Shown one piece after another: positions 56,257-58,456 of a DNA stretch of 64,000 nt (positions are counted from its first letter, which is position 1; each line of letters begins with the position of its first letter). The translations under genes were made by a program, and so were the position numbers. Below the pieces are notes generated by a model, which was not told where the DNA came from, searched no databases, and saw nothing but the letters and a program-made list of their open reading frames with translations. Origin of the DNA: Lysobacter sp. S4-A87. GTDB taxonomy: Bacteria; Pseudomonadota; Gammaproteobacteria; Xanthomonadales; Xanthomonadaceae. The stretch is from the NCBI RefSeq assembly GCF_022637455.1, contig NZ_CP093341.1, positions 2,294,001-2,358,000 of the forward strand, given 5' to 3'.

Positions 56257-56316
56257 ATGAAGTCAGCCGCCATGAAGTCAGCCGCCATGAAGTCATCCAT
56301 CACGAAGTCACCCATC
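56257..56316. repeat. Four 15-bp units at the start of bufA1
   Basis: ATGAAGTCAGCCGCC occurs twice in perfect tandem (56257-56286), followed by two degenerate copies. Three of the units begin with ATG, giving three in-frame start codons. Confidence 0.9.
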
Positions 56317-56754
56317 GTTCCCGTTTCCGGCGTCGCCCTGGCCCTGATCGCCGCCGGCATGGCCTTTACCGCCCCCACCGCCAGCGCCAAGGCCAAGTCG
56401 TCCGACACGGTCGAGCTCGTGCACTGTTCCGGCGTGAACGCGTGCAAGGGCCACAACGACTGCAAGACCGCCGACAACGCCTGCAAGGGCCAGGGCAGCT
56501 GCAAGGGCAAGGGCTTTGTCGCCGCCACCAAGCAGGCCTGCGACGACATCGGTGGCAAGCGCGTCGACCGCAAGGTCAGCGTCACTGCCGAAGCCAGCAG
56601 CCAGGTGCACTGCTACGGCGTCAACGCCTGCAAGGGCCACAACGACTGCAAGACCGCCGACAACGCCTGCAAGGGCCACGGCAGCTGCAAGGGCAAGGGA
56701 TTCGTCGCCCTGCCGGCGGCCAGCTGCGCCAACACCGGCGGCAACGCCGGGTGA
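56257..56754 (+). CDS. bufA1: Bufferin-type RiPP precursor with duplicated Cys-rich core
   Basis: 165-aa DUF2282/BufA1-like exported precursor. A signal peptide (residues about 18-44, [20 protein letters not shown]) is followed by two near-identical cores. Core 1 has Cys at 57, 63, 69, 76, 82 and 95; core 2 has Cys at 119, 125, 131, 138, 144 and 157, each exactly 62 residues later. Both share [18 protein letters not shown]. Family members normally have one such core of about 90-110 aa. MNIO enzymes modify these Cys to give copper-binding bufferins. The N-terminus is built of four 15-bp units ([20 protein letters not shown]), so ATG 56257, 56272 or 56287 are possible; GGAG at 56244 fits the first. 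Confidence 0.93.
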
Positions 56755-57638
56755 GCGCGCGCGTCGCGACTGGCGGCGCAGACCACTCCGGCGCACACGC
56801 GCCGGAGTCCCGTCCCTGGCTCGGCTTCGGACTGGGGCTGCGCCCCGAATACTTCGAGCAGATCCTGGCCTCGCCGCCACCGGTCGACTGGTTCGAGATC
56901 ATCTCGGAGAACTTCATGGTCGCCGGTGGCAAGCCCCTCCACTACCTCGACCGCATCCGCGCGCGCCATCCCGTCGCGATGCACGGCGTGTCGCTGTCGA
57001 TCGGTGGCACCGACCCGCTCGACCGCGGCTACCTGCAACGGCTGCGCGAGCTGATGCACCGCATCGAACCGGCCTGGGTCTCCGATCACCTGTGCTGGAC
57101 CGGCGTCGACGGCATCAACAGCCACGACCTGCTGCCGCTGCCCTACAACGAAGCCACGATCGGGCACGTGGTCGAGCGCGTGCAGCAGGTGCAGGAGTTC
57201 CTCGGCCGCGAGCTGCTGCTGGAAAACCTCAGCAGCTACGTCGAGTTCCGCGATTCGGACATGCCCGAATGGGAGTTCGTCGCCTGCATCGCCCGGCGCA
57301 GCGGTTGCCGGATCCTGCTGGACGTCAACAACATCCAGGTCAGCGCGCGCAACCACGGATTCGATCCGCACGATTACCTGGCGGGCATTCCGGCCGACCG
57401 GGTCTGGCAGGTGCACCTGGCCGGCCACAGCGACTACGGCACGTACTGCGTCGACACCCACAACCATGACGTGCCCGAATCGGTGTGGTCGCTGTACGAG
57501 AGCGCGATTGGCCGCTTTGGCGCGGTCAGCACGATGATCGAGCGTGACGACCACTTTCCTCCGTTGCCGGAGCTGCTGGCGGAGCTCGATCTGGCGCGGG
57601 CGGCGTTTGCCCGCGCCGTGCCGGTGGCATCGACGTGA
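56751..57638 (+). CDS. bufB: MNIO-family (DUF692) RiPP maturase
   Basis: 295-aa multinuclear non-haem iron oxygenase-like protein. The barrel carries conserved metal-ligand segments: [65 protein letters not shown] and STMIERDD. BufB modifies Cys residues of the BufA precursor using iron and oxygen. The GTG start overlaps the bufA1 stop (GTGA), and its own stop overlaps bufC in the same way. Confidence 0.95.
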
Positions 57639-58456
57639 CCACCCGGCCCGACACGGACGATCGGCTGGCCCGCCTGCAACGCGGTCTGCTGGCGCAGGTG
57701 CGCGGCTGTGGCGCTGACGGTGGCGCTGACGGTGGCGCCGAACGTGGCATCGACGGACTGCTCGCCCACGGCCGGATGCCTGCCGCACTGGGTCTTGGCA
57801 TCTACAGCCATGCCTACGGCGCGCGCCTGCGGGAAGCGCTCGAGCACGACCACGCGGTGCTGGGCATCTACCTGGGCGATGCGCTGTGGGAACGCATGTG
57901 CGAGGGCTACATCGCCACGCATCCCTCGCGCGTGCGGTCGTTGCGCGATTTCGCTTCGGACCTGCCCGGTTTCCTTGCCAGCGCCGAGCCGTTCGCTGCG
58001 CATCCCCAGCTGGCGGATCTGGCCCGGTTCGAGCGCTGCCTGCTCGACGGATTCGATGCTGCCGATGGCGAGCGCCTGGCCTGGGACGACCTGCTGGCCC
58101 TGCCGGAGGCGGCCTGGCCCTTCCTGCAACCGACCCTGCATCCGAGCTTCCGGCTGTACCAGGCCGGATTCAACAGCGTCGAAATCTGGCAGGCGATCAA
58201 GGCCGGGCAGACGCCGCCTGCTGCTGCCACCACGCACGCCTGCTGGGGCCTGTGGCGCGACGAGGAGCGGGTCAGCCGCTTCCGCTCTCTTGATTCGCGC
58301 GAACGCATCGCCATCAGCCACCTCCTCCATGGCGGCGGTTTCGCCGGCCTGTGCGAGGCGTTGGCAACGGACCTGTCGCTGGACGACGTGCCGGCCGCGG
58401 CCATCGGCTACCTGCAGTCCTGGTGCGCGGAAGGCTGGTTGTCGCGACTGTGCTGA
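57635..58456 (+). CDS. bufC: DUF2063 RiPP-recognition partner
   Basis: 273-aa protein of the DUF2063 family, which binds the precursor and presents it to the MNIO. RLARLQRGLLAQVRG opens the helical N-terminal domain, LGIYSHAYGARLREALEHD is the family signature, and the C-terminal half (FAGLCEALATDLSLDDVP) is the smaller recognition domain. An in-frame duplication GADGGADGG near residue 28 lies in a loop. GTG start overlaps the bufB stop by four bases. Confidence 0.93.
   Translation: MTTRPDTDDRLARLQRGLLAQVRGCGADGGADGGAERGIDGLLAHGRMPAALGLGIYSHAYGARLREALEHDHAVLGIYLGDALWERMCEGYIATHPSRVRSLRDFASDLPGFLASAEPFAAHPQLADLARFERCLLDGFDAADGERLAWDDLLALPEAAWPFLQPTLHPSFRLYQAGFNSVEIWQAIKAGQTPPAAATTHACWGLWRDEERVSRFRSLDSRERIAISHLLHGGGFAGLCEALATDLSLDDVPAAAIGYLQSWCAEGWLSRLC

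Follow-up and report, generated by a model that had tools for sequence, protein, structure and literature searches.

A gene in the 64,000-nucleotide stretch of Lysobacter sp. S4-A87 DNA analysed here (the window) encodes a bufferin precursor with two complete Cys-rich cores in tandem, and it raises the question of whether this is a new architecture made by a recent duplication, and whether the two cores act as one protein or are released as two. We find that the observation itself is sound, and that the precursor is of a known kind, earlier assigned to the wrong family of bufferins. The assignment is corrected from BufA1 to BufA2 and the claim of a new architecture falls; in its place comes a history that can be put to the test, in the simplest case a single origin, with a stable layout and with homogenisation of the core centre within genes. 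The within-gene likeness of the core centres, but not of the C-terminal edges, and the single-clade history are new, and they are modest additions.

Architecture and family of the precursor

The features of the locus are as follows.

56257..56754, forward strand: bufA2, two-core bufferin precursor of 165 amino acids with 12 Cys (NF050166 Cu_RiPP_BufA2, 2.6e-45, two matching stretches; two same-frame matches in the genome search)
56257..56385, forward strand: putative Sec-type signal peptide, residues 1-43, with an AxA-like end (from sequence, boundary by eye)
56425..56541, forward strand: core 1, Cys57 to Cys95, with Cys at 0, 6, 12, 19, 25 and 38 (from sequence; spacing shared with 82 of 83 two-core loci)
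56542..56610, forward strand: linker between the cores, residues 96-118, constrained in length (from comparison of two-core loci)
56611..56727, forward strand: core 2, Cys119 to Cys157 (from sequence; spacing shared with 82 of 83 two-core loci)
56751..57638, forward strand: bufB, MNIO maturase with the motif ERDD, its GTG start overlapping the precursor stop (GTGA) (NF050167 MNIO_BufB, 1.3e-114; PF05114, 3.4e-109)
57635..58456, forward strand: bufC, DUF2063 partner, its GTG start overlapping the bufB stop (GTGA) (PF09836, 3.3e-14, and sequence)

The translation of 56257-56754 bears out the two full six-Cys cores of the first-pass annotation: Cys57, 63, 69, 76, 82 and 95 recur as Cys119, 125, 131, 138, 144 and 157, all six pairs exactly 62 residues apart. 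When the precursor was compared with itself, this offset gave 41 identities over 103 positions and none of the other 49 offsets tried (40-89) gave more than 17. The block of 18 residues shared by the cores is identical, as had been claimed, and synonymous differences between the cores are confined to residues 57, 60, 62, 86, 87 and 99. Eight of the 12 Cys, the inner four of each core, are followed by Lys. Inspection by eye showed a hydrophobic stretch and an AxA at the N-terminus, and a simple pattern found no lipobox-like Cys in the window precursor. The same pattern found such a Cys in the signal region of 48 of 83 two-core and 5 of 35 one-core precursors (loci L001-L122), a count that looks to have missed at least L072 and L082; the nearest kin of the window, L005 and L013, are without it, like the window. 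The gene begins with a 15-base tandem repeat, ATGAAGTCAGCCGCC x2 (56257-56286), which gives extra in-frame ATG codons at the precursor start; the precursor of Lysobacter prati, the nearest named locus, has the 10-residue start alone.

An AlphaFold2 model of low confidence (mean pLDDT 66.8, pTM 0.55) predicts a strand, a strand and a helix in each core (51-58, 87-91 and 92-97; 116-120, 149-153 and 154-159) and an additional strand at 108-112, the centre being poorly predicted. A sequence search of the PDB with the precursor gave 0 matches up to E 1, and a fold search with this low-confidence model gave none at E <0.001, its two matches, both at E 9.8, being meaningless.

The label given earlier, BufA1-like, has to be replaced. 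The best family is BufA2, with 152.5 bits against NF050166 (cut-off 60) in two stretches. Pfam DUF2282 matches only marginally (25.5 bits, E 1.3e-05 for the protein); since this lies above the gathering score of 22.4, it speaks for a BufA1 (DUF2282) bufferin whose core was duplicated. Against this stand the much higher BufA2 score and the six conserved Cys in each core of the window precursor, where Buf1 has four; PMC12452194 gives Buf2 six, or twelve in duplicated domains. Buf1/BufA1 proteins (e.g. of Caulobacter) resemble the window precursor in a putative signal peptide, a copper-related operon and an MNIO with DUF2063. In addition, a six-frame search of the host genome with PF10048 had no match at E 0.001, although the search did recover its control, Caulobacter vibrioides. 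On the BufA2 score, the Cys count and this genome search we rejected the BufA1 identity, which we hold to be highly improbable. The window shows a BufA2 score above the cut-off, 12 Cys in duplicated domains, and an MNIO and a DUF2063 gene in the cluster, and the match in two stretches agrees with a bufferin precursor of two complete cores, as first annotated. Because of the BufA2 score, the marginal DUF2282 match and the Cys count, the precursor is, judged by its sequence, a BufA2/Buf2 bufferin of the published two-core, 12-Cys type.

The 12-Cys Buf2 of Cognaticolwellia aestuarii (WP_077285100) is like the window in family model, duplicated six-Cys domains, signal region, and MNIO with DUF2063. 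It is one of the two examples of 12-Cys Buf2 in PMC12452194, which also shows one such protein modelled with AlphaFold2. The locus from C. aestuarii KCTC 12480 in our set (L047), likened to WP_077285100 by species, has two cores at an offset of 61. The window is unlike the usual 12-Cys Buf2 in its offset of 62, in a linker without the D-x-W-x-G common in two-core Buf2, and in being without the lipobox-like Cys seen in many two-core loci. The same paper places sigma/anti-sigma genes in Buf1 clusters and not in Buf2 clusters, and lists a Buf1/Buf1 fusion, OAD22792.1.

The operon and its maturase

The precursor heads a bufA2-bufB-bufC operon. Among the 83 two-core loci, of which the window is one (L001) and at least one is present twice (L006 and L084, on contigs of the same length, 8881, with identical MNIOs), an MNIO is present at all 83 and DUF2063 at 82, and the MNIO starts -60 to +150 bases from the precursor stop in 79. 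The genes that come next in the window encode YjbR and an M20 peptidase; these two, and the oxidoreductase upstream, were each matched in one of the 79 named two-core loci, namely in L. prati (14 of the 79 are <8 kb long), and we therefore place them outside the system.

According to PMC12668002, MNIOs acting on Cys-Lys have an Asp next to the catalytic Asp and those acting on Lys-Cys have a Phe there. By motif, the ERDD of the window MNIO corresponds to the published Asp of the Cys-Lys enzymes, while the two other MNIOs of the host genome are ERDF and lie beside EGKCG precursors. Oxazolin and fontiphorin (EGKCG, Lys-Cys) resemble bufferins in that MNIO-modified Cys repeats bind copper (PMC12668002, PMC12538549), but unlike the window precursor they have 5-residue Lys-Cys repeats and the Phe at the MNIO specificity site. 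The host genome has two loci of this EGKCG/ERDF kind (L183 and L188, at G000:C1 ~3835088 and ~2982957), whose ORFs look DoxX-like by eye.

ERDD is not universal, and we count this against our main reading: two-core MNIOs have ERDD in 57 of 82 cases, ERDA in 18 and ERDG in 7. The motif also occurs in 27 of 29 one-core MNIOs. Nor is Cys-Lys a strict rule: of 52 relatives, just 22 have Lys after the fourth Cys of core 1, and 19 after that of core 2. Lys at core position 20 was found in both cores of 18 of 40 precursors with an ERDD enzyme and of 0 of 11 with ERDA or ERDG, kinship being ignored in this comparison.

Occurrence, layout and age of the two-core form

The first-pass annotation held that bufferin precursors are normally single-core. 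One-core forms are indeed commoner, but two-core Buf2 had already been published: PMC12452194 describes 'Buf_6/12Cys' Buf2 proteins, of which 90% have six Cys and the others, ~10%, have twelve. With a share of this size in print, double-core precursors were to a large extent already common in the family, which the annotation itself had named as grounds against its claim.

In 59 genomes, the window's own included, the BufA2 model scored above its cut-off in six, four of them two-core (the own genome, one congener and two of the order) and two one-core, of which one is a congener. A class sample had BufA2 above the cut-off in 67 of 369 genomes, its 93 matches being 90 genes; two of the 90 had two core matches in one frame, the own gene and that of G196, which was confirmed by reading. 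For a phylum sample the corresponding figures are 26 of 398 genomes, 37 matches and 33 genes, four of which had two same-frame core matches, all within the window's class (G954 and G1005 were counted from same-frame matches alone). The samples thus differ (2/90 and 4/33), and they bracket the tenth given in PMC12452194. A scan of named genomes, in which the best 80 of 185 relatives were analysed, found 79 of the 80 to be two-core by Cys pattern, which is not a frequency because a two-core protein was the query; the remaining locus, L076, has a pair of one-core genes. By title these best 80 of 185 are mainly Gammaproteobacteria (Shewanella, Colwelliaceae, Amphritea, Marinicella, Pleionea and Lysobacterales), with one locus titled Verrucomicrobia MAG (L042) among them.

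The layout is stable. Both cores have the same Cys spacing in 82 of the 83 two-core loci, and the core offset is 61 in 73, 62 in 7, 63 in 2 and 60 in 1. Second-core loci (L002, L010, L011 and L012) and minus-strand chance matches in L014 and L028 were left out of this set.

The duplication had been called recent or homogenised, and the first of these words does not survive comparison with near kin. In comparisons of 47 residues, the first core of the window precursor is identical to core 1 of the congener G010 at 0.915 and to that of L. prati at 0.936, and core 2 to their core 2 at 0.979 and 0.936, while identity across cores is 0.745-0.766. Because same-core identity exceeds cross-core identity, the duplication predates the split of the window species, G010 and L. 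prati. Among all 83 two-core loci, identity averages 0.744 between first cores and 0.735 between second cores, with 0.709 for a first against a second core and 0.769 for the two cores of one protein. Farther away the contrast weakens, same-core values being similar to cross-core ones (e.g. L047, 0.702 and 0.702 vs 0.723 and 0.638), a point that we count against our main reading.

The maturases separate two-core from one-core loci. In a tree of 111 MNIO proteins (111 of 113 kept after matches with <180 aligned residues were dropped), those next to two-core genes, 82 in all, fall into a single clade, with an SH-aLRT of 96. As those loci had been found through the precursor, we added 58 loci chosen by MNIO similarity alone, of which 10 are two-core, 45 one-core and 3 without a recognised precursor. 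Seven of the ten (L155, L156, L165, L171, L172, L176 and L179) apparently were already in the set, so that only three are new, and many of the 45 are apparent repeats as well. In the enlarged tree, a quick one with no bootstrap that holds 149 different rows of 169 and leaves out L123, the window's copy, all 92 two-core rows form one clade (SH-aLRT 95, repeats included), and the core state changes once, against a shuffled mean of 54.2. A tree of the cores themselves, with 44 columns, which are too few, did not reject core 1 as one clade (p-AU 0.227), but in the free tree 23 changes are needed. Most simply, the two-core form arose once, long ago, with its own maturase clade.

A recent tandem duplication in the window lineage would account for an identical central block and for codons that are nearly all identical. 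These codons are however expected, as GC3 is 0.97, and such an event is at odds with cores far closer to their counterparts in near kin than to each other, with a two-core layout common to 79 of 80 named loci (best of 185) and three other genomes, and with the single maturase clade. The cross-species core comparison led us to reject this explanation, to which we give almost no probability.

Likeness of the core centres and the expected product

Homogenisation, the other half of the earlier wording, holds for the core centre across the family. After removal of near-identical proteins (82 to 52; L087, with its odd spacing, was left out of the position and codon counts), within-protein core identity is 0.776, vs a mean of 0.706 after re-pairing (maximum of 2000 permutations, 0.724). 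The within-protein residue excess is >0.1 at core positions 1, 5, 16, 20, 22, 23, 24, 28 and 36 and <=0.03 at positions 32-35 and 37. Codons show the same centre. At positions 5-31, homologous codons are identical at 0.622, vs 0.538 for same-residue, non-homologous codons of both cores, with 37 genes above and 15 below (n=52, Wilcoxon p 1.8e-5), whereas the C-terminal edge has 0.544 vs 0.548 (p 0.92) and the N-terminal edge 0.528 vs 0.481 (p 0.12). When close kin serve as the reference, the centre is once more distinct (0.615 vs 0.518, p 0.00013, n=38) and the edges are not (C-edge p 0.38, N-edge p 0.11), and the profile of codon likeness peaks at core positions 24-29. The window's own gene taken alone does not carry the word: GC3 is 0.97 across the two cores, so identical codons are expected between them, and its 50-base identical run is what synonymous shuffling leads one to expect (p 0.216). 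For this gene base composition leaves either reading.

Short-tract gene conversion fits a likeness that is confined to the centre and that involves both residues and synonymous codons, and codon context may contribute. Selection by a shared maturase, acting on the centres with no exchange of DNA, is a possible but rather doubtful sole cause. It would agree with a residue excess restricted to the few positions listed above, with the association of position-20 Lys with ERDD enzymes (which ignores kinship), and with the per-gene longest-run test, in which 12 of 52 genes reached p 0.05 and 2 reached 0.01, leaving 40 above 0.05. What selection on residues does not account for is the synonymous excess found in the centre only, both relative to codons for the same residue at other core positions and relative to close kin. 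We give about an even chance to the fuller history, in which an ancient two-core lineage is tied to its own maturases, short-tract gene conversion keeps the enzyme-facing centres alike and the edges specialise. If this is true, a bacterial peptide gene copies one half of itself onto the other so that one maturase serves both. No title or abstract among the matches listed in the open-licence PMC literature concerned within-gene homogenisation of bufferin cores, from which absence is unproven.

We consider it very probable that the bufA2-bufB-bufC operon makes, from its two-core BufA2 precursor, one copper-buffering product of two domains whose centres are kept alike. The precursor would be made in the cytoplasm. 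There the MNIO and its DUF2063 partner would oxidise the inner Cys of both cores, most likely the Cys-Lys at 63, 69, 76 and 82 and those at 125, 131, 138 and 144, into copper-binding heterocycles, and the outer Cys (57-95 and 119-157) would most likely form disulfides. Eight modified Cys and two disulfides would be expected by analogy with Buf1, in which, according to the Fig. 3 legend of PMC12452194, modification falls on the central Cys and a disulfide joins the outer two; for Buf2, the Discussion of that paper reports the same mass loss per Cys and a 305 nm maximum. The putative Sec signal peptide would then direct the protein, uncut and with both domains, to the periplasm, to buffer excess copper there with about twice as many sites as a one-core bufferin has. 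This form would have arisen once with its own maturase clade, and local gene conversion, selection imposed by the enzyme, or both would since have kept the centres of the two cores alike within genes, the C-terminal edges being core-specific.

The suggestion that the precursor is cut between its cores to release two separate bufferins found no support beyond the two-core layout itself. The offset is constrained (61 in 73 of 83 two-core loci), the M20 peptidase near the window gene, the sole protease checked, occurs in 1 of 79 named two-core loci, and the lipobox-like Cys of 48 of 83 two-core loci would anchor the first half only; we think cleavage very unlikely. Two-core bufferins would be a clean system for asking whether a single pass of one MNIO complex suffices for two cores that lie apart, and whether a second core brings twice the capacity for copper.

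Two other arrangements were seen among the relatives. L076 and L114/L141 have two adjoining one-core BufA2 genes with a single MNIO; such a pair may be the counterpart of a fused two-core gene, and their MNIOs lie outside the two-core clade. In G402 (L186:275-613) and G413 (L187:1325-1759), BufA2-like ORFs with 10 and 13 Cys have a single core that is expanded internally, and such internal Cys units are another route to more Cys than the doubling of a whole core.
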